A DNA stretch of 64,000 nt from Alphaproteobacteria bacterium (lineage in GTDB: Bacteria > Pseudomonadota > Alphaproteobacteria > UBA6615): assembly GCA_022449545.1 (NCBI GenBank), contig JAKUPN010000001.1, positions 248,001 to 312,000 on the forward strand, in the 5' to 3' direction. This document shows, piece by piece, positions 21,655 through 56,375 of this stretch. Numbering within the stretch: the first letter of the stretch is position 1; every line of letters begins with the position of its first letter. The notes beneath the pieces were generated by a model. That model had not been told where the DNA came from, ran no database searches, and saw nothing but the letters and a program-made list of their open reading frames with translations. The position numbers and the translations under genes were made by a program.

Positions 21655-22965
21655 TTACTCTGCCGCTTCAGCCATATCATGACCCGTACGAGTTGTAATC
21701 TCATCTAGAGCAGGTTTAACCACCTCATTAAATTCAGTCATATTTTGGATAACCTTATCCTTAGGCATCTGCGCATAATGATATATTAATGTAATGTACT
21801 CAGCAGGCATTTGTTCCCACTGAGCGACTAGCTGATCACGCACTGATTCAGCCGTTCCAATCGCATAAAGCCCAGAAGATAACATCGACCCTATAACATC
21901 ATCTTCGTCAAGTTTTCTTCGACCCATAGCTGCATAAAAGTTTTTCCAGATATCATAATCATGAGCCATTACAGCATCCATAGCTGCATCTTCGCTTTCG
22001 GCAATCTGCAACCAACGTACTATATTTTGATTTTGCCCAGGCAGCCAATTAAAACCTGCTTTGGCAGCTGTTTCGGCATATTGAACACCGAGAGGCGCCG
22101 CCGTACTTATATCAGTGAAGTAAGTCGGAATGAAACCCATTCTAGCATTATAATCAATAGTTTCCGGACTCCCACTTCCTGAAACAAATACCGGAGGATG
22201 TGGATCCTGATACGGAGCAGGACACACAGATATATTAACTACATTATTGTTTTCATCAACCTCGTCTAAAGCGCCCAATCTCTGAGTGACGCCAACTTGA
22301 GCTAACTGCCAATCATCAACACCTGTGTCACCTGGATAAGGTATTTGCCAAGCATTCCCTTTATGACTCATCGAGTCTTGGGTCCAGGCCTTCAAAACAA
22401 TTTCGATATTCTCTTCGAAAACATCACGATTATGCTGGTCGTTCTTTACGTCTTTATCAGATATCGAAAAACCACTCTGAGCAAACCCTGCTCCAACAGC
22501 TGTCTGATTATTCTTAGCGGCAGTAGGTGACTTAGTAGATGTGGTCCCATAATGCTGCCCAAACACATTAGTCCATCGGCTCTGATAGCCTCTAGCAAAA
22601 CCAACAAAGCTTCTTCCCTGTGTTAGATGATCTATAATTGCTGTCTCTTCAGCAACTCTGAGAGGATTCTGAATACTCATAACATACCCGAGCTGTCCGA
22701 CACGAACGTTCTTAGTAATAGCCGCCCAGTAAGCATCCATAATGGCTGGAGCTGGCCCAACTTCATATCCCTCAGACCAGAAGTGATGTTCAATAGTCGC
22801 TACACCCCAAAAGTTTTGATTATCAGCAGCTTTAATTACCTCATGCCACCCCTGAACCGTCTCCTGGTATCGATCCTTATTCCGACCTATAGGACGAAGT
22901 TTGGCGCGCTCTTCCTCACTTTCAGCGTAGATCACTGGGTAGGTCTGTAAAATCGGTTTAACCAT
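21655..22965 (-). CDS. Luciferase-like (LLM) flavin-dependent monooxygenase, paralog 1
   Basis: A 436-residue member of the bacterial luciferase superfamily, which uses reduced flavin and oxygen (or F420 in other branches). Segments include ATIEHHFWSEGYEVGPAP near residue 57, RVAEETAIIDHLTQGR and VGFARGYQSRWTNVFGQ. Both the EHH and ARGYQSRW stretches recur almost unchanged in a second gene at 27568-28803, so the two are paralogs. This copy has an extra insert of about 20 residues after the FGQ segment. Luciferase-fold enzymes need a separate flavin reductase; none is adjacent. Substrate unknown. Confidence 0.85.
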   Translation of the reverse strand: MVKPILQTYPVIYAESEEERAKLRPIGRNKDRYQETVQGWHEVIKAADNQNFWGVATIEHHFWSEGYEVGPAPAIMDAYWAAITKNVRVGQLGYVMSIQNPLRVAEETAIIDHLTQGRSFVGFARGYQSRWTNVFGQHYGTTSTKSPTAAKNNQTAVGAGFAQSGFSISDKDVKNDQHNRDVFEENIEIVLKAWTQDSMSHKGNAWQIPYPGDTGVDDWQLAQVGVTQRLGALDEVDENNNVVNISVCPAPYQDPHPPVFVSGSGSPETIDYNARMGFIPTYFTDISTAAPLGVQYAETAAKAGFNWLPGQNQNIVRWLQIAESEDAAMDAVMAHDYDIWKNFYAAMGRRKLDEDDVIGSMLSSGLYAIGTAESVRDQLVAQWEQMPAEYITLIYHYAQMPKDKVIQNMTEFNEVVKPALDEITTRTGHDMAEAAE

Positions 22966-27567: not shown

Positions 27568-28803
27568 CTACTCTGCTGCAAGAGAGTAGTCTGGCGTTTC
27601 AAGTTCAGGAATCACTTTTTCCATAAATAGCTGCATTTCTTCCAACAACTCATCTTTAGGATGCTGAGCCCAATGCCAAATCAGAGTGATATATTCACAC
27701 GGTATTTTCGAATATATTTCTTTCCAATCTTTAATCGCATCATCAACTGTTCCACCCAGAAAAAATTTAGTCCTCTTCATCTCTGCAAAAGCTTTTTCAG
27801 CGTCCTGATTCACAGGATCAACGTTATGATTACCGAATACACTGTAGAAGTTCTTAAAAATATCGAGATCGTACCCTCTAATTTTTCTATCAAAATCATC
27901 CGTTGACTTAGCTATTCTGGTGTGACGAACGAGGTTTTGATTTTGGCCATATAATAGATGCCGGCCATATTTAGCAGACTCCTCTACATATACTTTAGCT
28001 AATTCAACGACACTATCGGTAGGATTAAAGTAGCTAGGCCGAAAACCATGTTTTGCCGCAAACTCGATGGTGGCACGACTTCGAGCAACAGCAACAAAGC
28101 AAGGCGGGTGAGGATTCTGGTATGGTTTAGGGACTACAGATATACGACGAAGAACTCCATTATCGTCCACTTCCCCTTCGGCACCAGCTTCCCTTGCTAT
28201 TAAATGACCTTCATAGCCTTCAATACCAGTTTTAAGAGGATACGGCGCCTCATAATACTTACCTTTCAATTCAACCGAATCTTTCGTCCAGCAATCAAGT
28301 ACCATTTCTACGCGTTCTTCAAAAATTTCTCGATTCTTCAAATCTCCTGAACTGCCATCTGATCCGGTCGCTACGGCCTCGCTACTTTGTCCAAGTATAT
28401 TAGTCCACCGAGACTGATAACCGCGGGCAAAACCAACAAAATACTTGCCATTGGTTAGGTGATCTATAATAGCTGTTTCTTCAGCTACACGAATCGGATC
28501 TTGGGTTGCCATAACATATCCAAATGCTCCAACATTTACATTCTTTGTATGGGCCGCCCAATAGGCATTTAACACCCCAGGATTAGGACCAACTTCATAA
28601 CCTTCAGAATGAAGGTGATGCTCAATTGTAGACATTCCCCAAACGCCCATCTCATCAGCAGCTTTTACTATGTCTGTCCATTCATGAACTATTTTATTAT
28701 ACAAGTCTGAGTCACGTCCTATAGGTCGTTTTTCCCGACGATCATCTTCATCCTCGGAGGGGATTACTGGATATAACTGAACAATAACTTTAGGCGATCC
28801 CAT
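27568..28803 (-). CDS. Luciferase-like (LLM) flavin-dependent monooxygenase, paralog 2
   Basis: A 411-residue luciferase-superfamily protein closely related to the gene at 21655-22965. Shared stretches include STIEHHLHSEGYEVGPNP, RVAEETAIIDHLTNGK and VGFARGYQSRWTNILGQ, and both proteins end in Ala-Ala-Glu. It is first in a minus-strand group with a cupin and an amidohydrolase, and divergent from an SDR gene 139 bases away. A flavin-dependent oxygenation followed by hydrolysis is a reasonable reading of the group; the substrate and the reductase partner are unknown. Confidence 0.85.
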   Translation of the reverse strand: MGSPKVIVQLYPVIPSEDEDDRREKRPIGRDSDLYNKIVHEWTDIVKAADEMGVWGMSTIEHHLHSEGYEVGPNPGVLNAYWAAHTKNVNVGAFGYVMATQDPIRVAEETAIIDHLTNGKYFVGFARGYQSRWTNILGQSSEAVATGSDGSSGDLKNREIFEERVEMVLDCWTKDSVELKGKYYEAPYPLKTGIEGYEGHLIAREAGAEGEVDDNGVLRRISVVPKPYQNPHPPCFVAVARSRATIEFAAKHGFRPSYFNPTDSVVELAKVYVEESAKYGRHLLYGQNQNLVRHTRIAKSTDDFDRKIRGYDLDIFKNFYSVFGNHNVDPVNQDAEKAFAEMKRTKFFLGGTVDDAIKDWKEIYSKIPCEYITLIWHWAQHPKDELLEEMQLFMEKVIPELETPDYSLAAE

Positions 28804-31190: not shown

Positions 31191-32576
31191 CTAACCAAAT
31201 ACCAACTTGGGTAGGTAGGTTACAATGCCAGGATATGCATACATGCAAATAATCAAGGCCAGCATTAATATCCAGTAAGGGGTGGATCCCTTAAATATAT
31301 CCATTAATGTCACATATTCGCCGTCTCCCGTATCCGGGATCGAAGCCTTAACAGTATAAACTAAAAGCCCAAATGGGGGTGTCAATATACCAGCTTCGAT
31401 AGCTAATATACCTATCAATGCATAGGTAAGAGGATCAATCCCTATAGTAGCCGCAATCGGAGCAAATATCGGGACAGTTAACAACATAATCGAAACCGAA
31501 TCGATTATCATACCCAAAATGAACCAAACTATTACCATTACAAATATAACTTGCCATGGATCTAGACCGGCGTCTGAGAAAAAACCTTGAATTGCAGAAA
31601 CAACCCCCGTCATAGTGAGGGTACGGGAATATAACTGAGCTGCTATAAGCAGTATAAGCAGCGGAGCGGCCGTCCTTCCAACGGCTAGGATACCTGCGTA
31701 AATATCAGGCCATCTCATCCCTTTTATTATTCCAAGTAGTAGAGCTATCAGTGCTCCCATGCCAGCTGCCTCAGTCGGAGTGAATAAACCTGCCCAAATT
31801 CCTCCTAATACAGTAACAATAAGTGCTAAGAGACCTAATCCACTTGTCCAAATGGAAGCAGAACTAATTTCTTTATCGACTTCGTCAGGATTTAAGTTTA
31901 CAGCAGATATCCCATCCTCGTTCATTCCTGCTTTCAAAGTATCGGCTGAGTTCCCAACTAACTGAGGCCTAAGAATTGCTGCGACTAAAATATATACGGC
32001 AAAAAATGAAACTAGAATCAACCCAGGAAGAACGCCCGCTAAGAACAGCTTACCAATCGACTGTTCGGTAAGAATTCCCCAGACAATCATTAAAACACTA
32101 GGAGGAATTAGCATTCCCAAACAACCGCTGCCTGCAATCGAGCCCAAGGCAAAACTTCTGTTGTAGCCATGACGTTTCATTTCGGGATAAGCAATTCTTG
32201 TAAAAGTAGCGGCAGAAGCAATACTTACCCCTGTAACAAAAGAAAACACTGCGTTTCCAAACAGCGTTGCGAGGGCCAGACGACCCGGTATTCTGCGGAA
32301 GGATCTTTGTAAACTTACATAAAGGTCACTTGTAGCCCCAGACCTTCCTATAAACTCACCCATTAACATAAATAGTGGAATAACAGCAAAAATATAGTCT
32401 CGTATGGCATCATAGAAGGTGTTCTGAATTAGTGCTAAAACAACACTCTCTCGTCCCGTAACCATATAAATACCCACTGCACTTGTAATACCCAAAGCAA
32501 CTGCGACATGTATTCCTGAAAAAACGAGCACCAAAAGCAAAATCAAAACAACAGCAGCTACATCCGCAGAAAACAT
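31191..32576 (-). CDS. TRAP transporter large permease (DctM type)
   Basis: A 461-residue integral membrane protein with about 12 or more hydrophobic segments. It has the DctM features GSIAGSGCLGMLIPPSVLMIVWGIL, FTPTEAAGMGAL and the GMIIDSVSIMLLTVPIFAP segment. The large subunit carries the sodium-coupled transport path. A hydrophilic insert of about 40 residues (near 208-248) interrupts the usual spacing between helices. It follows the small permease by 21 bases; the matching binding-protein gene is divergent at 33523. Confidence 0.93.
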   Translation of the reverse strand: MFSADVAAVVLILLLVLVFSGIHVAVALGITSAVGIYMVTGRESVVLALIQNTFYDAIRDYIFAVIPLFMLMGEFIGRSGATSDLYVSLQRSFRRIPGRLALATLFGNAVFSFVTGVSIASAATFTRIAYPEMKRHGYNRSFALGSIAGSGCLGMLIPPSVLMIVWGILTEQSIGKLFLAGVLPGLILVSFFAVYILVAAILRPQLVGNSADTLKAGMNEDGISAVNLNPDEVDKEISSASIWTSGLGLLALIVTVLGGIWAGLFTPTEAAGMGALIALLLGIIKGMRWPDIYAGILAVGRTAAPLLILLIAAQLYSRTLTMTGVVSAIQGFFSDAGLDPWQVIFVMVIVWFILGMIIDSVSIMLLTVPIFAPIAATIGIDPLTYALIGILAIEAGILTPPFGLLVYTVKASIPDTGDGEYVTLMDIFKGSTPYWILMLALIICMYAYPGIVTYLPKLVFG

Positions 32577-32597
32577 TACAAACTCTCCCCCGTTAAC

Positions 32598-33137
32598 CTA
32601 TTCATCTACCGATGATTGGTATTCCACCAGACTAGATGGTAAAACCTCTTTAAGCGCCAGGATTGCATAATTTACAACCAACAAGCCGCTAGTGAGCAAG
32701 ACAACAACCCGAGCCGGCCAGGTTGGCACTCTCAAAGCACCTTCCCCTTCGAACTCTCCTGTGACAAGTGCGTGCCAGGCAGGATCTATTGTTCCTATAA
32801 ACAGAGCTGCAAAGAATAGGGCACCAAGAATATATCCTGCACAATTAATTACTTTCTCTGGAACTCCTCCAATCATATGCAGCATAAAATCAGCGCGAAG
32901 CATTGATCGGGACATAACACAATAGGCAGCTTGCATAAAAGCAATCATTACAATTGCGTTTTTCACTAATTCATGTGTTCCTTTTAAAGGAAAGCCAAAA
33001 AACCTCCCAACTACGTCTATTAAAATATAAAAGGCGATTAGAAAGGCCCACATGGCTGCAATAACCATAAGCCAGCGGCTCAGTCTGGCCGACCATATAT
33101 CAATCTGACGGATTATAGGAATGTTTATAATGGACAA
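32598..33137 (-). CDS. TRAP transporter small permease (DctQ type)
   Basis: A 179-residue protein with four membrane segments, the DctQ layout. Typical features are the loop after helix 2, GRFFGFPLKGTHELVKNAIV, and YCVMSRSMLRADFML. The small subunit is needed for assembly with the large permease. It is first in the minus-strand permease pair and lies 385 bases from the divergent dctP-like gene. Confidence 0.9.
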   Translation of the reverse strand: MSIINIPIIRQIDIWSARLSRWLMVIAAMWAFLIAFYILIDVVGRFFGFPLKGTHELVKNAIVMIAFMQAAYCVMSRSMLRADFMLHMIGGVPEKVINCAGYILGALFFAALFIGTIDPAWHALVTGEFEGEGALRVPTWPARVVVLLTSGLLVVNYAILALKEVLPSSLVEYQSSVDE

Positions 33138-33522
33138 AAACTTATTTCCTTTTCTGGTCTCACTTTACATCATGTTGCAAAACATAAAGCTCGTTTATTC
33201 ACAGTCCTATAGCACACGATTGCATTGCTAAATAGCTGATAGGCCAGTTTCGTTCTGATTATTCTACATAATCTGTGGGTCTGCGTCTTTGAGATAAGTA
33301 GTATAGAAAGCACAAGCCGACTTGTCACGCCCCAATAAGAAGGCTAAAAATAATACTTCGACTTTTGTCGGTGTTAAATTAAGCTTAAATAATCTACTTA
33401 ATTCGAAGTTTTACATAGGATAAAGTGGATAAATATGATTGTAGTCTGTATCGTAACGCGGAAACACGGTATAGAAAAAATAAACAGAGACACCGTGGTC
33501 TCAATGAAGAGAGGAGAATAAA
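33138..33522. other. Intergenic region between divergent TRAP permease and binding-protein genes
   Basis: 385 bases without a supportable gene. It must hold the promoters for both TRAP transcription units. Seen here: a candidate forward promoter at 33365-33393, the spaced inverted repeat GAGAC-N6-GTCTC close to the binding-protein start (about 33485-33505), and a ribosome site GAGAGGAG before the TTG start. No RNA gene or terminator is evident. Confidence 0.6.
33365..33393 (+). promoter_or_regulatory. Candidate promoter for the TRAP binding-protein gene
   Basis: TTGTCG (33365-33370) and AATAAT (33388-33393) are separated by exactly 17 bases and match the sigma-70 consensus at 9 of 12 positions. 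This would give a leader of about 120 nucleotides before the TTG start. Candidate only; other AT-rich hexamers occur nearby. Confidence 0.4.
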
Positions 33523-34596
33523 TTGTCCAAATCACTTGGAATTCTTGCGGCGGGCGCTCTTGCGGTAGGTTTACTTGCAACTGCAGCTATTCCCGCAAGC
33601 GCAGATAAATTTAATTTTCGGATGGCTTCTGGTCATGCACCAGCTACAGGCTATGTACGAATGATGTCGGAGCAGTTCGCCCCACGTGTAAAAGCTAAGC
33701 TTGCAGCTATGGGACACAAGGCGACATTCAATGAAGCTTACGGTGGATCAATAGTTAAAGTTGCTGAAACACTTGAAGGCGTTAAAGACGGCATCGTCGA
33801 TCTTGGTGGATATTGTTTCTGCTTTGAACCATCAAATCTGTTTGTGCATACATACCCCTTGTGGATGCCGTTTGATGCACAAAATGCCGTTCTAGGAACT
33901 AAAGTAGCTCGTACGGTATATAATAAAGTGCCGCACATGAATGGCGTTTTTGAAAAAAAATATAACCAAAAGCTGCTAGGTCTATTCGGCTTTGATAACT
34001 ACGGTCTCTACACCACTTTTCCATGGTCCGATGTAAAAGAGCTTAAAGGAAGAAAATTGTCTGGCGCAGGTCCAAACCTACCTTGGGTAGAAGCTGTTGG
34101 CGCAATACCTGTTGGCACAACTTTGCCAGATGTTTATCCTTCTCTTCAGACTGGTGTCTATGAAGGAGTACTACTCTTCCCATCAGTTGGATGGAGTCAT
34201 AAACTCTTTGAACCAGCCCCTCATTATAAAATTGCAGGTTTTGGTTCGAAAACATTCCATGGTGTTACTATTAATCTAGATACATGGAAAAAACTCCCTG
34301 CTGATGTCCAAAAGGCTATGTTAGAAGCCGGTCAGGAAACTGAAGACTTCACTGGCCCTTGGGTTGACGAGCTAGAAGCAACAAATCTTGGTCGGATGGT
34401 CATGGCTGGTGCTATAGTAACTCGAGTAACTCCTGAAGCGAGATTGGCTTGGGCAAAAACTTTAGCAGGTTTCCCTAATATGAGAGCCAAAGAAGCGGAC
34501 TCCAAAGGGTTACCAGGTTCTACCGTGGTTCGTATGGCTGTAGACGTTGCAGAAAAATTAGGACACAAATGGCCTGTAAGGTATGTAATCAAATAG
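33523..34596 (+). CDS. TRAP transporter substrate-binding protein (DctP type)
   Basis: A 357-residue periplasmic binding protein. A signal peptide spans about residues 1-26 (SKSLGILAAGALAVGLLATAAIPASA with an AxA cleavage site), followed by the DctP fold; ELKGRKLSGAGPNLPWVEAVG is the ligand-loop region carrying the conserved Arg. The start is TTG with GAGAGGAGAATAAA upstream, and no in-frame ATG gives an intact signal peptide. The permeases are divergent at 31191-33137. The ligand is probably an organic acid; nothing identifies which. A GC-rich hairpin follows the gene. Confidence 0.9.
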   Translation: MSKSLGILAAGALAVGLLATAAIPASADKFNFRMASGHAPATGYVRMMSEQFAPRVKAKLAAMGHKATFNEAYGGSIVKVAETLEGVKDGIVDLGGYCFCFEPSNLFVHTYPLWMPFDAQNAVLGTKVARTVYNKVPHMNGVFEKKYNQKLLGLFGFDNYGLYTTFPWSDVKELKGRKLSGAGPNLPWVEAVGAIPVGTTLPDVYPSLQTGVYEGVLLFPSVGWSHKLFEPAPHYKIAGFGSKTFHGVTINLDTWKKLPADVQKAMLEAGQETEDFTGPWVDELEATNLGRMVMAGAIVTRVTPEARLAWAKTLAGFPNMRAKEADSKGLPGSTVVRMAVDVAEKLGHKWPVRYVIK

Positions 34597-47764: not shown

Positions 47765-48670
47765 ATGGCGATCACTCGGGTAGAATCTTTAGTTTATGGA
47801 GTTAATGATTTAGCTGCTGGTATTAATTATTATCAGGATTGGGGTCTCGAAATTCTAGAAAAAAATAGCAAAGGGGCTATATTCGCCACTCCTGTAGGGC
47901 AAACTATTTACCTGCTAGATAAAAATGACTCCTCTCTTCCTTCTGCTCCAAGTGATAATAAATCAACGGTTCGTAAGACGGTTTGGGGAGTAGATTCAGA
48001 AGAAGAATTAGAAAAAATTTCCGTTGAGCTATCAAGGGATAGGAAAATTATCCTTTCTGAAGGTAATTCCTTCTATACGCGAGATGAAAGTGGGTTTCCA
48101 ATAGGTTTTTGTTTGAGCCAACCAATCCAGGTAGATATTGCTCCCCCAGAAGTAAATACGAACGAAAACTCTAAACGATTAAATAAAGTTATAAGTCATA
48201 TCTCTCAAGCAAAGCCCTTTCGCATTGGACATGTGGTCTACTTCATCCCAAAAGAGCAATCAGACACAGCAGTTTCTTTTTATATTGATCGTCTAGGTTT
48301 TCGTCTGTCGGATCGTACAATTGGCCGAGGCGATTTTATGAGGTGTCCTCAATCCCGTGATCACCACAATTTATTTTTGTTACAAAGAAGTGGTTCAGCT
48401 GAATTTAATCATGCGGCATTTGAAGTTAAGGATTTCGATGAAATCATGATGGGCGGTGAATATATGAAAAAACATGGATGGATGGCTGCAACTAACCCTG
48501 GTAGACATATTTTAGGATCAAATCTTTATTGGTATTTCTCGAATCCTAGCGGTGGTAATACAGAATATTTTGCTGATATGGACTGTATGGACGATAATTG
48601 GAAGCCAAGAATATGGGATAAAAACCCTGGCTTTTCTCTCTGGTCTATTGATACGCTTACTAACAATTGA
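47765..48670 (+). CDS. Two-domain VOC extradiol dioxygenase-like protein
   Basis: A 301-residue vicinal-oxygen-chelate protein with two modules, as in BphC/HsaC type-I extradiol dioxygenases. The C-terminal module keeps the full iron site: His156 (RIGHVVYF), His216 (FNHAAFE) and Glu267 (NTEYFADMD), and the catalytic His of RDHHNLFLLQ. It should cleave a catechol-like ring next to one hydroxyl. The flavin monooxygenase 35 bases downstream is the natural partner, making the catechol. The aromatic substrate is unknown. Confidence 0.84.
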   Translation: MAITRVESLVYGVNDLAAGINYYQDWGLEILEKNSKGAIFATPVGQTIYLLDKNDSSLPSAPSDNKSTVRKTVWGVDSEEELEKISVELSRDRKIILSEGNSFYTRDESGFPIGFCLSQPIQVDIAPPEVNTNENSKRLNKVISHISQAKPFRIGHVVYFIPKEQSDTAVSFYIDRLGFRLSDRTIGRGDFMRCPQSRDHHNLFLLQRSGSAEFNHAAFEVKDFDEIMMGGEYMKKHGWMAATNPGRHILGSNLYWYFSNPSGGNTEYFADMDCMDDNWKPRIWDKNPGFSLWSIDTLTNN

Positions 48671-48705: not shown

Positions 48706-49890
48706 ATGACCGTAACAAGATTAGATACTAATGATTACGACGCAGTCAGTGCTGCAGATAAGTTAGTCCCAATTATACAACAACGCGCGGAAGCAACTGA
48801 GGATGCTCGTTCAGTTGTAAAGAAAAATATTGAAGACTTAAAAAGTGCAGGACTATTTAGAATGGGGGTTCCTAAATATTTAGGAGGTCATGAACTTCCG
48901 ATTGAGCAATCGGTCGAAGCCATATCACGATTAGCAAGAGGCTGTGCCTCAACGGCATGGGTTTGTGGAGTTTATAATGATCACGCAATAACTATCGGAA
49001 TGTTTGATTCCCAAGCTGCGGAAGATATATGGGGTAACAATCCAGACGCTCTTGTTTCTGCAGGGTTCAATCCTGCAGGGGAAACAAAACGAACCGATGG
49101 AGGTTGGAATCTAAGTGGCACCTGGGGCTGGTCAAGCGGTTGTGATCACGCCAACTGGCTGATGGTGGTTACTTTTTTGCCTGCGGAAGGAAACGATAAG
49201 CCTACACCTTATTTTTGCCTGGTTCCCAGATCGGACGTTAAAATTGAGGATAACTGGCAAGTAATGGGATTGGTTGGTACAGGATCAAAAAATTTAGTAA
49301 TTGAGAATGCTTTCGTTCCTGACCACCTTACATTTTCCATGATTGAAACAAATAACGGTTCTGCCAATCGACTAATGAACAAGGTTTCGCCTCTTTTTTG
49401 TTTGCCCCGCACCTCAGTAATCCCATTTATGCTAGCGGCTCCATCCCTAGGAGTAGCAGAAGGCCTCCTCAAACTTCACATGGATTACGTAAAAAATCAC
49501 CAAAGCATGGGAGGTGTCAGTTTAAGTGAACTGGGAACAATGCAAATGCATATTGCCGAATCCTCAGCTGAAATAGACGCTGCAAAAATACTAATGTTGC
49601 GAGATTGTCGAGAGGCAATGGCCTCGATGTACAAAGGACAAGAAATGACAATGATAGAAAGAGCTCGTTGTAGAAGAGATCAGGCTTATATGGTTACCTT
49701 ATGTAGACGAGCAGTAAACAGATTATTTACTACAGCTGGAGGAAGTGGAATTTTTTTAAACAATGATATGCAACGTAAGTTTCGTGATATTAATGCCATC
49801 AGTGCTCATATGGCTTTAAACTGGGATATTGCGGGAAGCATTTATGGAAGGGTTTCTCTTGGATTGGATCCTAAAGACCCCAGAATATAA
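48706..49890 (+). CDS. Flavin-dependent monooxygenase, acyl-CoA-dehydrogenase-like (HsaA/HpaH-C2 type)
   Basis: A 394-residue protein with the acyl-CoA dehydrogenase fold: N-terminal helices, a middle beta-domain (SGTWGWSSGCDHANWLMVV) and a C-terminal helical domain (TAGGSGIFLNNDMQRKFRDINA). SGxWxxxSGxxHA is typical of group D flavin monooxygenases such as HsaA and C2-hydroxyphenylacetate hydroxylase, which hydroxylate phenols using FMNH2 from a separate reductase. No reductase gene is near. It has a good GGAG site and is in an operon with the ring-cleavage dioxygenase. Confidence 0.85.
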   Translation: MTVTRLDTNDYDAVSAADKLVPIIQQRAEATEDARSVVKKNIEDLKSAGLFRMGVPKYLGGHELPIEQSVEAISRLARGCASTAWVCGVYNDHAITIGMFDSQAAEDIWGNNPDALVSAGFNPAGETKRTDGGWNLSGTWGWSSGCDHANWLMVVTFLPAEGNDKPTPYFCLVPRSDVKIEDNWQVMGLVGTGSKNLVIENAFVPDHLTFSMIETNNGSANRLMNKVSPLFCLPRTSVIPFMLAAPSLGVAEGLLKLHMDYVKNHQSMGGVSLSELGTMQMHIAESSAEIDAAKILMLRDCREAMASMYKGQEMTMIERARCRRDQAYMVTLCRRAVNRLFTTAGGSGIFLNNDMQRKFRDINAISAHMALNWDIAGSIYGRVSLGLDPKDPRI

Positions 49891-50149: not shown

Positions 50150-51199
50150 ATGATGAAGCAAATCAACGTTGGGGTGATTGGAACTGGATGGACTGGAGGC
50201 ATACGTGCAAATGCCTGTGCAACAAGTCCTTTAATAAATGAGCTACACATTGCTGAAATAAATCCGACGAGATTGGCTGAAGTAAAACAAGAAACCAATC
50301 CTGTTTTTTCGACTACTGATTGGGAGGAGTTGCTCAAAAAAGATGAACTAGAAGCTATTGTCATTTCTGCAACCCCAGAATCAACACATTATCCTATGAT
50401 TAAAGCGGCGCTAGAATCTGGTAAACACGTCTTTGTAGAAAAGCCAATATCAACCACTATTGCCGAAGCAGATGAGGTAATAGCCCTAGCAGAGTCTAAT
50501 AATCTAAAATTTACGGTCGGGTACTCCCAACGTTTTAAGCCTAAGTTTGCTTATGTTAATAAAGCCCTAAAAGAAGGACTAGTTGGCGAACCGGTAACCT
50601 GCCTTGTTAGCAGAAATGTTACCCGGGAACTGGGAACTAAAATAACTGGCCGCTCTAAACTTTCTCCTGCTGCCATGGAGGCCACACACGATTTAGACTT
50701 CCTATTATGGTGTCTTCAACCTAGAAAACCTGTTCGTGTTTACTCACAATCCTCAGGAAAACTTTTCAGGAGAACAAGTGAGACTCCCGACCATCAATGG
50801 ATTATGGTCACAATGGATGACGGCACAACAATTACCGTAGGAGCCGGATGGATACTTCCAATTGGCTATCCAAATTACTCACAATGCTGGATAGAAGTCA
50901 TTGGGTCAGATGGGGCACTAACAATTGATGACACCAATAAAGAGGTTCAATTCAATACGACGGAAAATGGTATACGCTACCCGATGTCTTCGATGCCGGG
51001 AGAGCCAGTTGATCACGTTTTCGCAGGCCCAATGGCGAATGAAACATTACACTTTATTGAAGCAGTAGTTTATGACAGACCAGTTATGGTAAAGCCTGAT
51101 GAAGCACGACTTGTGATGGATGTGTACACGGCTGCTGACTTATCAGATGAACTCGGAGAGCCTGTAACCATACCGCGCAACGATCCCGAACCTGCCTAA
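50150..51199 (+). CDS. Gfo/Idh/MocA family oxidoreductase
   Basis: A 349-residue NAD(P)-dependent dehydrogenase. The Rossmann motif is GVIGTGWTGGIRA near residue 8, the catalytic Lys is in VEKPIST, and ATHDLDFLLW matches the C-terminal substrate-domain His. Family members oxidise sugars, inositols or dihydrodiols such as 4,5-dihydroxyphthalate precursors. A second, related copy is at 53976-55097. An ATG at 50153 is equally possible. The substrate is unknown. Confidence 0.87.
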   Translation: MMKQINVGVIGTGWTGGIRANACATSPLINELHIAEINPTRLAEVKQETNPVFSTTDWEELLKKDELEAIVISATPESTHYPMIKAALESGKHVFVEKPISTTIAEADEVIALAESNNLKFTVGYSQRFKPKFAYVNKALKEGLVGEPVTCLVSRNVTRELGTKITGRSKLSPAAMEATHDLDFLLWCLQPRKPVRVYSQSSGKLFRRTSETPDHQWIMVTMDDGTTITVGAGWILPIGYPNYSQCWIEVIGSDGALTIDDTNKEVQFNTTENGIRYPMSSMPGEPVDHVFAGPMANETLHFIEAVVYDRPVMVKPDEARLVMDVYTAADLSDELGEPVTIPRNDPEPA

Positions 51200-51333: not shown

Positions 51334-52083
51334 ATGGATAATGGAATTTGGGCCGTTTGGTATGACTTACCCGAAAATGTGCAAAAAGAGCATATTGATT
51401 GGTTACATAGCTCGTATCTTACAGAAATCATTTCCAGACCGGGTTTCACCTGGGCAGCCCACTATCAAAGTAATGGGGGTGGCCCGGACATGGATAAAGT
51501 ACGTAATACTTTTCCAAAATCAGTGGATATGGAAAACATTGGCAAAGGAACTGAATTTCTCATTTTGATAGGCGCTGCAACTCCCTCAACTTTTTTTGCT
51601 CCTAACGTTGTTGATCAAGAAAACTCGAGCGAGAGAGCAACTAGAGAAATGCTAAATATGAGAGAGGGCGAAAGAGTATGTATTTTTTCCGAATTTGCAC
51701 GAGTTAATGGCCCAGAAATAGAAACTAGGCCTAATGGGACCACGCCTGGCCCAGCTATCCAGATGGGAAGCTTTAGAATAAATGAAATCGATAAAGAGTT
51801 CGATCTAGGATCATGGTATATGCAAGATAGGCTGCCTACCATGGCAAAAATGTCCGGATGTATCGGCGCTAGAGTCATGTTATCAGCTGCAGGTTGGGCT
51901 AAATACTCCGTACTTTATGAGTTTACTTCGTTAGAAGCTCGACTTGAAAATTTCGAAAAGCAGCAAGAAGCTTTAAATTTAGATGAAAAAGAATGGTCTG
52001 GAAAAGTTATAAGATCGACTATGCATACACCTGGTTCACCAATTGTTGCTCAGAGAATTTGGCCTCCTTTGAAAAATGGATAA
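51334..52083 (+). CDS. Unrecognised protein, probable duplicated alpha-beta barrel
   Basis: I do not recognise this 249-residue protein as a named family. The two halves look related: the first has IWAVWYDLPE...GFTWAAHYQ, the second LGSWYMQDRLPTMAKMSG...KYSVLYEF, each consistent with a ferredoxin-like alpha-beta module of dimeric-barrel proteins (EthD-, GYD- or monooxygenase-like). No cofactor motif or signal peptide is seen. GGGGAAAA precedes the ATG. It overlaps the following DctP-like gene by eight bases, so the two are made together. Confidence 0.65.
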   Translation: MDNGIWAVWYDLPENVQKEHIDWLHSSYLTEIISRPGFTWAAHYQSNGGGPDMDKVRNTFPKSVDMENIGKGTEFLILIGAATPSTFFAPNVVDQENSSERATREMLNMREGERVCIFSEFARVNGPEIETRPNGTTPGPAIQMGSFRINEIDKEFDLGSWYMQDRLPTMAKMSGCIGARVMLSAAGWAKYSVLYEFTSLEARLENFEKQQEALNLDEKEWSGKVIRSTMHTPGSPIVAQRIWPPLKNG

Positions 52084-52996
52084 CATCAATATACACTTTG
52101 CAGGGTATCAGGGTAAATTCTCTGTACATAGTAAAGCTATAACTATGTTTAAAGAGAATTTAAGTTCCATTTTGGGAAACAAACTGAATTTTTGTCAGAC
52201 AGATAGTATAATCAATTTAGGTCGACCCGCAACTGACCTTATTGAAATGGTCAGCTCCGGGGAGATAACGTTATGCTATCTGGCCTCGAGTTATCTAGCA
52301 GACAGAGTGCCTGAATTCGAACTTCTAGACCTCCCGTTTACCATACATAATCGTGAACAAGCATATGCATTAATGGATGGCCCCTTAGGAAAGTTTTTAT
52401 CCGATAAAACTGCCGATGTTTGTGACTTTCGTATTTTGTCATGGTGGGATAACGGTTTCCGGCACTTTTCTAACAATATTCGTCCTATCAAAAAACCCGA
52501 AGATTGTCTGGACTTAAAAATAAGGACCCTAAGAAGCAATATATATACCGAAACTTTATCCGTCCTAGGTTTTAACCCAATATATAGTGATGTCAGTCAA
52601 ATAAAATCCCTGGTCAGCTCTGGTGCGATAGATGCACAAGAAAACGCTTTAAGTAATATTTTAAATTTTGGGTTTCATGAGCACCATAGATGGATAACTC
52701 TCTCAAATCATTTCTTCGGACCAGCAGTGGTCTTATGTCACAAAAATACTTATGATGGATGGTCTTTAGATCTAAAAAAAATCATATTATCAGAGCTAGA
52801 AAAAGCAACAGACTATCAAAGAACACTTGCTGCCTTGGAAGAAAGTGAAGTTATAGAAAAATTTGATCTTTCTAAAAATGAGATATACACACTGGATGTA
52901 AATGATATAGAGGCGTTTTCAAATAAAGTTCAGCCAATAATTGAAAAAACAGTAAGTCGTTTTCGAAATGAACTTTTTGAATTTCTTACCCATTAA
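52076..52996 (+). CDS. DctP-fold protein without signal peptide
   Basis: A 306-residue protein with DctP/TRAP binding-protein features: INIHFAGYQG at the N-terminus in the place of a mature DctP, YLASSYLADRVPEFELLDLPF, DCLDLKIRTLRSNIYTETLSVLG with the ligand-binding Arg, and SGAIDAQENALSNI. It starts directly with the mature-type sequence. A TGA two codons upstream in the same frame rules out an upstream signal sequence, so it should be cytosolic. It may be an enzyme or ligand sensor rather than a transport component; no TRAP permease is adjacent. Confidence 0.75.
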   Translation: MDNINIHFAGYQGKFSVHSKAITMFKENLSSILGNKLNFCQTDSIINLGRPATDLIEMVSSGEITLCYLASSYLADRVPEFELLDLPFTIHNREQAYALMDGPLGKFLSDKTADVCDFRILSWWDNGFRHFSNNIRPIKKPEDCLDLKIRTLRSNIYTETLSVLGFNPIYSDVSQIKSLVSSGAIDAQENALSNILNFGFHEHHRWITLSNHFFGPAVVLCHKNTYDGWSLDLKKIILSELEKATDYQRTLAALEESEVIEKFDLSKNEIYTLDVNDIEAFSNKVQPIIEKTVSRFRNELFEFLTH

Positions 52997-53019: not shown

Positions 53020-53913
53020 TCAAATAGGATCAGAATCACGAATAGTATCAAATTGCGGATAAAGTAAACTATAATCTTCTTCGGACATCCCCATATTTAT
53101 GGCTTTTTCAAGAAAATTATAGGTCTGATTTGTATAGTGTGCTTTTACACCCATAGAATCGGCCATTCGTACTGCCATCCCAAGATCTTTATTTAGGTTG
53201 TACACCCTAGATCGCGCATCCCACTTTTCTGATAGAATATGTTTAGGAAAACGAAACTCACTCGAATAACTTCGAGCATTAGAATTGTTAAAGACATCAA
53301 TCATGTCCTTAAGAGAAATACCAGCAGATTCCGCCAGACGTCCAGCCTCACAATTCGTGAGAAATATTGTATGTACCACCATATTATGTATGAGCTTCAT
53401 GGCGTGCCCGGCCCCACTTTCACCAAGATAATAAATATTTTTTGCAATCGATCCCAATAGGTCTCGGTGTTTATCAAAAACATCTTCATCACCTCCAATC
53501 ATTAGAGTAAGTTCACCGGAATCTGCTCCTGTAGCGCCGCCACTCATGGCTGCGTCCATGTAATAAACTCCCTTTTCAGAGGCTAATTCCGCAATCCGTT
53601 TCGTGTCTTCGGGAAATGAAGTTGTTAAATCAAAAATGGCAGTCTCAGGAAGAGCGTTGGCTAATACACCCTCATCACCTAGCAATGTTTTTTCTATTTC
53701 TAAAGTAGCCGGTACCACATAAAACAAAGTGGCACCCTCAAATGCCATTTTATCAGGAGACATAATAAAAACATTATCCCAATCTTTAAAATATTTTAAA
53801 GCAGAATTATCAATATCCCAGACAGCTGTTGAATAACCTGCCGCGGCAAAATTCATTGCGACGCCGCGCCCCATATTTCCTAGACCTATGACGCCTACTG
53901 AAACTTTAGTCAT
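53020..53913 (-). CDS. Beta-hydroxyacid dehydrogenase (3-hydroxyisobutyrate dehydrogenase-like)
   Basis: A 297-residue NAD(P)-dependent dehydrogenase. GVIGLGNMGRGVAMNFAAAG is the cofactor motif; YMDAAMSGGATGADSGELTLMIGG is the substrate motif, with catalytic Lys in AGHAMKLIHN. Substrates of the family include 3-hydroxyisobutyrate, tartronate semialdehyde and 2-hydroxymethylglutarate; which applies is unknown. It is on the minus strand after a Gfo/Idh gene with a 62-base gap and converges on the DctP-like gene. Confidence 0.88.
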   Translation of the reverse strand: MTKVSVGVIGLGNMGRGVAMNFAAAGYSTAVWDIDNSALKYFKDWDNVFIMSPDKMAFEGATLFYVVPATLEIEKTLLGDEGVLANALPETAIFDLTTSFPEDTKRIAELASEKGVYYMDAAMSGGATGADSGELTLMIGGDEDVFDKHRDLLGSIAKNIYYLGESGAGHAMKLIHNMVVHTIFLTNCEAGRLAESAGISLKDMIDVFNNSNARSYSSEFRFPKHILSEKWDARSRVYNLNKDLGMAVRMADSMGVKAHYTNQTYNFLEKAINMGMSEEDYSLLYPQFDTIRDSDPI

Positions 53914-53975: not shown

Positions 53976-55097
53976 TCATAGATAATATTCATCTAGGCTT
54001 AACGGTAATTCAAGCTCTTGCCGTCTTCTAGAAGATAGATCCATAGCCATAGTCAAAAGGAGGTTCATATGTCCTTCAGCAGCTGTTGCATGTGGTGTTT
54101 TCATCCCCGTATACAAATGTTGGTACCAAGAATTCGTTTCTTCCCTCATAGGCCCCCAAAACTGTCCATCATAAACATCTCCAGCAGGATAGCTGGTAAG
54201 AAAATCAACATGTCGTTGAAACTCAGGCGTAAATCCATCTGGTACGTAGCCTCCACCTTGAGGAACTTCTGTGGCTAAGACCAAATCACGATGTGTGTCT
54301 TCAACATCTATTACGCCTTTATTGCCAATAATGCCTATCTCTAAGCCATATACGGCTCCTGGCCACACTACTGGAGCTGCCCAGCTAATATTCATGGAAA
54401 ACATTGTGTCATCGTCCATCACGAACACGCCAAAGGTTGAATCTTTGGTACCATACTGTGAAAGAGCTAAATCATTAGAACGAGCATAAACTGATACTGG
54501 CACCTTACCTTCCATTAGCCACATAGACATGTCCAAAGCATGCGTTCCTGAAACAACCATTGGGGTTAAGTTTTGGCGTTGATTAGTTCTCTGTACAGTT
54601 GCAATAGGCACCATGCGATTCATTATTGCCCTCGTAACCACGCCTGTAACCTGACCAATTTGGCCTGTATTAAGACGTTCTTTAATGGCTAGAAATCTCC
54701 TTCGAAATCTATTTGTGTACCCTACAACAGCATCTACTTCAGCTTCTTCGATAGCATTTAAAACCTTCTGGGACTCTCTAACATCTGTTGCCAACGGTTT
54801 TTCTATAAATAAATTATGACCCTGTTCGACTGCAGAAAGTATAGGAAGCACATGATGATTCTCATCAGTTGAGATAATAACAGCATTGACTTCCGGCCGT
54901 TTCACAAGTTCTTCATAATTAGTCGTAAAAAAATCAGCGCCGGTATCTTCAACCAATTTTTGGCCCAAGTCTTCTTTGAGGTCACATAATCCTAGCCAAC
55001 CAATCCCTGGGTAATCGCGAGCCATTTCAGCTCTAATTCGACCTATTGTGCCGCAACCTATTATAGCCAAACCAATTTCTTTACGCGCGCCTGTCAT
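53976..55097 (-). CDS. Gfo/Idh/MocA family oxidoreductase
   Basis: A 373-residue dehydrogenase: GLAIIGCGTIGRIRAEMA (Rossmann), IEKPLATD (catalytic Lys), GYTNRFRRRFLAIKERL and SGTHALDMSMWLM. It is a distant paralog of the gene at 50150 and resembles inositol 2-dehydrogenase-type members. The frame is open to 55193, but that adds an atypical N-terminus; ATG 55097 has AGAGGA about ten bases upstream. It is the first of two minus-strand dehydrogenase genes. Confidence 0.86.
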   Translation of the reverse strand: MTGARKEIGLAIIGCGTIGRIRAEMARDYPGIGWLGLCDLKEDLGQKLVEDTGADFFTTNYEELVKRPEVNAVIISTDENHHVLPILSAVEQGHNLFIEKPLATDVRESQKVLNAIEEAEVDAVVGYTNRFRRRFLAIKERLNTGQIGQVTGVVTRAIMNRMVPIATVQRTNQRQNLTPMVVSGTHALDMSMWLMEGKVPVSVYARSNDLALSQYGTKDSTFGVFVMDDDTMFSMNISWAAPVVWPGAVYGLEIGIIGNKGVIDVEDTHRDLVLATEVPQGGGYVPDGFTPEFQRHVDFLTSYPAGDVYDGQFWGPMREETNSWYQHLYTGMKTPHATAAEGHMNLLLTMAMDLSSRRRQELELPLSLDEYYL

Positions 55098-55299
55098 TAT
55101 AATTAATTCCTCTTTCATAAATATACTTGAGGTATATCTCTTTAACCATTCTTGGAATAAATAGCACCAATTTTTTTCCCCTGCTGCCTCCATAATATAA
55201 GGCTTTGATAATAGAGATTTATTCAGTGTCTGTATTACTAGAATTAGACCGTATAAAGTATCTTAAAGTCTTATATATCGACAAATTGATTAATTACGG

Positions 55300-55327: not shown

Positions 55328-55367
55328 TCTATTTTAATCAAGTTAGATTTTCTAGGAGTAATTGGCA

Positions 55368-56375
55368 ATGTATTCAGTTGATATTCACGCCCATTTTTTT
55401 ACTCGAGGTTACATAGATACGCTTAATAAGTATGGTCATAAAGTAGATTGGTCTGTCGAATATAAGAATGATGGCTCAGTAATAATGAGTTCCCAAGACA
55501 ATAGACCTGTAGGCCCAATTGACCCTAGTTATTTTGACATAAACGCCCGATTAGAAGGACTCGACCGGCAAGAAACAGATCTTCATGCTCTTTCTCTAAC
55601 TAATCCAATGTGCCATTTCAGCGACGACTCGCTCAATCTTGATTTGGCTCAAGCATATAATGATGGGACATCAGAGTTTCATATAGCGCATCCCGATCGT
55701 TTTGTTGGCCTTATAACATTACCAATGCTTAATGCAGATGACGCAATAACAGAATTAGAAAGGGCCGCAAGACTGCCTGGTTCTAAAGGTGTCTACATGG
55801 GAACCAATATAGCCGGCCATAATTTATCAGAAGAGAGGTTCGAGAGCATTTTTGATAAAATAGCAGAACTAAATCTTCCAATATTTTTGCACCCGGGAAA
55901 TGTAATAGGTGCTAACAGGCTTACTCATTATCACACAATCAATACCATCGGAAATCCAACAGACACTGCGGTAGCTGCAACATTTCTGATTTTTAGTGGT
56001 ATATTGGATAGACACCCAAAATTAGAAGTGTGCCTTCCCCACGCAGGAGGCACTTTCCCCATACTAATTGGGAGAATAGACCATGGATGGAGCGTCCGCC
56101 AGGAATGCAAACACTTGGCCAATGCCCCATCAAGCTATTTAAGAAGATTCTCATATGACACGATAGGACACGCAAACTACGTTATGAAGTACTTAACTGA
56201 TCTGGTTGGCTATGACAGAGTTCTCCTGGGCAGCGATTTTTGTTTCGACATGGGTCATGAAAAACCTGTAGAGAACGTTAAGAGTTATGATTGGCTTAAT
56301 GATCAAGAAAAAAGGGCAATTATTGGAGAAAACGCCTGTCGTATCCTTGGACTAGAAATCCCAGTGGAAATCTAA
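55368..56375 (+). CDS. ACMSD-like amidohydrolase
   Basis: A 335-residue amidohydrolase-2 protein of the 2-amino-3-carboxymuconate 6-semialdehyde decarboxylase group. Metal motifs: DIHAHFF (HxH), FLHPGNVIG (His), LPHAGGTFP (His) and LGSDFCFDMG (Asp). Relatives decarboxylate aromatic or muconate acids such as gamma-resorcylate. A TTG at 55362 is also in frame, but ATG 55368 is nine bases after AGGAG. Proximity to the ring-cleavage pair suggests a shared aromatic or muconate pathway; this is inference. Confidence 0.85.
   Translation: MYSVDIHAHFFTRGYIDTLNKYGHKVDWSVEYKNDGSVIMSSQDNRPVGPIDPSYFDINARLEGLDRQETDLHALSLTNPMCHFSDDSLNLDLAQAYNDGTSEFHIAHPDRFVGLITLPMLNADDAITELERAARLPGSKGVYMGTNIAGHNLSEERFESIFDKIAELNLPIFLHPGNVIGANRLTHYHTINTIGNPTDTAVAATFLIFSGILDRHPKLEVCLPHAGGTFPILIGRIDHGWSVRQECKHLANAPSSYLRRFSYDTIGHANYVMKYLTDLVGYDRVLLGSDFCFDMGHEKPVENVKSYDWLNDQEKRAIIGENACRILGLEIPVEI

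Follow-up and report, generated by a model that had tools for sequence, protein, structure and literature searches.

Receptors of the DctP type (PF03480; for example, SiaP) are common in marine bacteria as components of TRAP transporters, and they are annotated as transport parts on the basis of fold alone. Other periplasmic-binding-protein folds have been reused as enzymes, such as 4,5-dihydroxyphthalate decarboxylase, MqnA/MqnD, and THI5/NMT1; to our knowledge, this has not been described for the DctP fold, and no characterised DctP-fold enzyme appeared in the literature that we searched. A receptor-like domain may also occur on the cytosolic side of a transporter: the cytosolic C-terminal domain of NrtC resembles the receptor NrtA. 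Here, we describe a DctP-fold protein that lacks a leader, and we weigh what it may do in the cytosol.

A DctP-fold protein without a leader

The gene lies in a stretch of 64,000 nucleotides, referred to here as the window. The features around it are as follows.

47765..48670, + strand: VOC-superfamily protein, extradiol-dioxygenase-like (sequence matches)
48706..49890, + strand: HsaA/HPAH-like flavin monooxygenase, oxygenase component (sequence matches)
50150..51199, + strand: Gfo/Idh/MocA dehydrogenase 1 (Gfo1), upstream neighbour; best solved match, DgpA
51334..52083, + strand: 249-amino-acid (aa) protein, first gene of the coupled pair, probably of a dimeric alpha-beta-barrel type; no family above cut-off; adjoins the DctP-like gene in 18 genomes
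52070..52072, + strand: in-frame TGA excluding an upstream leader, two codons 5' of the open reading frame (ORF) at 52076 (sequence)
52076..52996, + strand: leaderless DctP-fold protein, 306 aa, the core of the finding; PF03480 at E 2.3e-55, in-frame stop upstream, start shared across the clade
53020..53913, - strand: beta-hydroxyacid (3-hydroxyisobutyrate-type) dehydrogenase, convergent neighbour (sequence matches)
53976..55193, - strand: Gfo/Idh/MocA dehydrogenase 2 (Gfo2); best solved match, DgpA
55362..56375, + strand: amidohydrolase-2 protein of the ACMSD-like decarboxylase family (sequence matches)

The 306-aa protein has the DctP family fold, as it matches the PF03480 profile over its full length and above the curated cut-off (188.4 bits versus 23.4), with residues 17 to 292 aligned to profile positions 10 to 282 of 286. 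It also matches dozens of solved TRAP receptors. Against the TIGR00787 dctP subfamily (NCBIfam), it scores 154.9 bits, below the curated cut-off of 175.05, and it scores above the cut-off of the broader NF037995. PF03480 is its sole Pfam match at E values up to 1; within that search, there was no match to the 4,5-dihydroxyphthalate decarboxylase, MqnA/D, or NMT1/THI5 families. AlphaFold models of this protein and of the 249-aa protein, built from three-row alignments, had pLDDT values of 32 to 33.

The signal peptide or lipoprotein leader of TRAP receptors is absent from this protein and from the whole clade to which it belongs. The initial annotation had placed a TGA at 52070-52072 and an 8-base overlap (52076-52083) between the ORFs at 51334-52083 and 52076-52996, and the sequence agrees with these coordinates exactly. 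Its view of a DctP-like protein that has no signal peptide and stays in the cytosol is borne out by this upstream stop and by the same start across the clade. The sequence rules out the usual export route. No DctQ/DctM permease lies within 17 kb of 52076-52996 in the window, in line with the earlier remark that no TRAP permease adjoins the pair, and the immediate cluster is free of other permeases too; the nearest TRAP set, about 17.5 kb off, has its own DctP-family protein. That set (31191-34596) is complete and ordinary, with DctM, DctQ, and a leadered DctP-family receptor on the other strand, and is unrelated to the leaderless protein.

Leaderless homologs form one clade within one order

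The window's genome belongs to an uncultured alphaproteobacterial order, and 21 of the 24 genomes that represent this order hold forty-odd leaderless homologs between them, with one to four matches in each. Using a search profile of 23 leaderless proteins, we found no further leaderless member passing E 1e-60 among 289 genomes from across the class and 299 from across the phylum; the sole match outside the order has a longer, leadered frame. The next-best proteins reach at most 207 bits, versus at least 300 for nearly all full-length members, and most of them carry plain signal peptides. Among the approximately 149 class-wide DctP matches listed, the frames of almost all full-length proteins span at least 327 codons. 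In a plasmid search for DctP relatives, the matches in the regions read with their annotation were TRAP receptors that have a leader and are encoded next to permeases or catabolic genes. A literature search that covered a minority of subscription journals returned no report of leaderless or cytosolic DctP proteins.

In a maximum-likelihood tree, the 23 leaderless proteins fall on one side of a branch with support of 99/100, separate from the 30 leadered relatives included, most of which have plain signal peptides. Every member also has a start codon at a fixed distance from an invariant Gly-Tyr, exactly 9 residues upstream of it in sub-branches A and B and exactly 10 in sub-branch C, and most members have an in-frame stop shortly upstream. 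Upstream reading of every member revealed no conserved hydrophobic leader across the roughly 40 members of the clade. Purifying selection acts on the leaderless genes, whose dN/dS values run from 0.06 to 0.20, with 0.09 for the two closest genomes. Given these values and the recurrence of one start in about 40 sequences from independent assemblies, the leaderless frame is neither chance nor a sequencing accident. A frameshift or assembly error that hides a leader was considered and rejected for the same reason, the start being identical across these sequences with no conserved hydrophobic segment before it.

The initial annotation had named leadered homologs with adjacent TRAP permeases, or a frameshift that conceals a leader, as observations that would speak against its reading. 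These objections fail, as no homolog in the clade has a recognisable signal peptide, yet TRAP permeases do adjoin two members of sub-branch C.

The carboxylate site is retained among new invariant residues

Three residues that are invariant in the clade, R129, R150, and N190, are also common in transport receptors, and R150 is present in 23/23 leaderless and 30/30 leadered sequences. By alignment offset, we take R129 and N190 to correspond to Arg-127 and Asn-187 of SiaP. R150 is the counterpart of SiaP Arg-147, the conserved carboxylate-binding arginine, whose equivalent is reported in 96.8% of the family and is required for carboxylates to be bound with high affinity (PMC4646407). Seven other residues (Y11, H18, Y68, D172, A187, H204, and W229) hardly vary within the clade, which is not the case among its relatives; their placement in the pocket relies on a rough offset to SiaP. 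As read from the alignment, the carboxylate site is kept and other positions are remodelled, since R129, R150, and N190 are invariant and the clade-specific residues are new.

The 249-aa protein is a frequent but replaceable neighbour

The 249-aa protein matches no family above its cut-off, and we found no convincing relative of known structure. Its sub-threshold matches are to ABM (E 0.06) and DUF4286 (E 0.001 to 0.0035), and it has a weak internal repeat (18 columns, E 0.11). The label of a two-domain barrel, given to it in the initial annotation, is plausible from the sequence. Plasmids yielded zero matches.

A search for the same gene pair in other genomes recovered it in 18 of the 20 that have sub-branch A. 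The tight coupling that had been noted in the window recurs as well: the 249-aa gene directly precedes the DctP-like gene in 12 of the 20, with a gap of -8 to +17 bases, and the 8-base overlap is identical in three. In G011, the adjoining pair is split between two contigs. What is not supported is the pair as a fixed two-part unit. A carboxymuconolactone-decarboxylase-like (CMD) gene lies between the two genes or directly after the 249-aa gene in 6 of the 20 genomes (with G020 limited by contig ends), metallo-beta-lactamase-fold genes take the place of the 249-aa gene in two (G013 and G021), and sub-branches B and C lack it. Metallo-beta-lactamase-fold genes directly upstream of a leaderless DctP gene were observed at L050:30-818 and L107:72-1495. 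Relatives of the 249-aa protein with about 34% identity (L078, L080, L081, and L082), at other places in the order, are located near CMD-family genes and have no DctP neighbour.

These associations suggest that the 249-aa family is tied to CMD-type chemistry. Since the protein tracks both this chemistry and the DctP-like protein, the two are unlikely to form an obligate complex and likely to share a pathway.

Paired dehydrogenases as constant partners

The window cluster looks catabolic, as it combines an HsaA-like monooxygenase, an extradiol-dioxygenase-like VOC protein, and an ACMSD-like amidohydrolase; judging from these sequences, its substrate is possibly an aromatic or glycosidic acid. 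The true start of Gfo2 is probably about 33 codons inside the ORF at 53976..55193. In the genus of the window, no regulator gene is found beside the DctP-like gene, and the interval between Gfo1 and the 249-aa gene has no TTT importer; TctA genes are present elsewhere in the genome. Farther away in the window, two similar proteins that resemble luciferase-type flavin monooxygenases by eye (21655-22965 and 27568-28803) lie 4.6 kb apart.

The catabolic neighbourhood is kept across the clade. A leaderless gene of sub-branch A is usually accompanied by Gfo1, the 249-aa protein, the hydroxyacid dehydrogenase, and Gfo2, joined in most genera by a GntR/UTRA regulator. In several genera, a complete TTT importer (TctB, TctA, and a TctC that has its own leader) separates Gfo1 from the 249-aa gene. 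Because the clusters of these relatives include a TctABC importer whose receptor is normal, the DctP-like protein is not needed for import. In several genomes of sub-branch C, a second Gfo1 homolog (61 to 67% identical), a second Gfo2-like gene, and a GMC oxidoreductase adjoin the leaderless gene, whereas no Gfo/Idh/MocA neighbour was found at sub-branch C2 and some C1 loci. Two sub-branch C members are the sole cases of a fused DctM permease gene beside a leaderless gene, which lies directly behind it (L069:6308-10385 and L076:9304-12892); in L069, a TAXI-type receptor (NMT1_3) precedes the fused DctM. GntR/UTRA or LysR regulator genes occur near some leaderless members.

Around 17 leaderless genes in six genomes, we counted 24 Gfo/Idh/MocA genes at distances of up to 10 kb, versus 1.7 expected; the corresponding Poisson value of 1e-19 overstates the enrichment, as the loci are related by descent. 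G008 alone has six versus 0.25. In that genome, all three leaderless genes (L048, L073, and L074) have two Gfo/Idh/MocA genes within 10 kb, which accounts for six of its 16. In the window's genome, nine ordinary DctP genes have zero Gfo/Idh/MocA genes within 10 kb. The initial annotation left this link unnamed; it is the paired dehydrogenases that are the constant partners.

Possible roles of the cytosolic protein

It is highly probable that the protein acts in the cytosol within a catabolic module. Our preferred reading, to which we assign a probability of roughly 45%, is that it is a carboxylate-binding DctP-fold protein recruited to catabolism there, most probably as an enzyme. A leaderless branch of the TRAP receptor fold would have left transport for the cytosol, where it would still bind a carboxylate through the conserved Arg and Asn residues of the family. 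Most probably, it acts as an isomerase, lyase, decarboxylase, or other enzyme on a substrate or product of the two flanking Gfo/Idh/MocA dehydrogenases. The barrel-like 249-aa protein, translationally coupled in the sub-branch of the window, would probably act at an adjacent pathway step rather than serve as an obligate subunit. The linkage to the dehydrogenases, the remodelled invariant residues, and the lack of a signalling domain favour an enzyme, and catalysis, which the initial annotation had raised, stays conceivable on the sequence. Counting against it, the pocket retains the residues that a pure binding protein needs, the regulators near some members also fit sensing, and the C2 loci and some C1 loci have no dehydrogenase beside them. 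With slightly less confidence, we suggest that the leaderless clade may be a new family of TRAP-receptor-fold enzymes; its members would work with the paired Gfo/Idh/MocA dehydrogenases as part of an uncharacterised catabolic pathway in this uncultured order.

The main rival reading, which is possible but less likely, is that the protein performs no chemistry of its own and is a cytosolic ligand-binding sensor or carrier, which binds an imported carboxylate and either signals its presence to the local regulator or importer or passes it on to an enzyme. The transport-type pocket residues and the frequent importer neighbours favour this role: an importer with its own receptor is often near, namely TctABC in sub-branch A and the TAXI receptor with fused DctM in one genus of sub-branch C, and GntR/UTRA or LysR regulators accompany some members. 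There is also a precedent in NrtC, whose cytosolic C-terminal domain is involved in the ammonium inhibition of nitrate uptake (PMC6603209). However, the protein has no signalling or DNA-binding domain, the importers are variable and missing beside the copy in the window, in whose genus no adjacent regulator was found either, and dehydrogenases are the commoner neighbours. A single two-part enzyme formed by the 249-aa and DctP-like proteins in one complex would agree with their tight adjacency in 12 genomes, three of them with the 8-base overlap, but it is improbable given the CMD-family gene that intervenes or follows in six genomes, the replaced partner in G013 and G021, its absence from sub-branches B and C, and the relatives that accompany CMD-family genes without any DctP. 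We consider it very improbable that the protein is an ordinary TRAP receptor with an unusual export route or a leader hidden by a frameshift. Its close family membership, its ligand residues, and the TRAP set 17.5 kb off in the window would fit such a receptor; nevertheless, that set has a receptor of its own, and independent assemblies repeat the same leaderless start with no conserved signal-like segment upstream.

Comparison with known systems

Both dehydrogenases that flank the protein have DgpA as their best solved match, and these matches are modest. DgpA converts glycosides by oxidation into their 3-oxo forms (PMC11239390). Of the cluster proteins that were examined, none was recognised as a DgpB/C-type deglycosidase.

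With DctP-type TRAP receptors such as SiaP, the leaderless protein has in common the full-length fold, as judged by sequence, and the carboxylate-binding Arg and Asn residues. Unlike them, it has no signal peptide and, in the window, no TRAP permease partner; it has clade-specific invariant residues and a cytosolic catabolic neighbourhood. It resembles the known periplasmic-binding-protein-fold enzymes in the reuse of a binding-protein fold in the cytosol, but those derive from other receptor families. The C-terminal regulatory domain of NrtC, in the nitrate ABC importer, is likewise receptor-like and on the cytosolic side; that domain, however, is fused to an ATPase and belongs to another receptor family, whereas the leaderless DctP-like protein is free. 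The loss of the export signal and the position within catabolic clusters suggest that a transport-protein fold has been recruited for an intracellular job, perhaps as an enzyme. The existence of a conserved cytosolic clade means that a transport annotation based on fold can be wrong, and the clade provides a defined set of sequences for asking whether the DctP fold became an enzyme or a soluble sensor.
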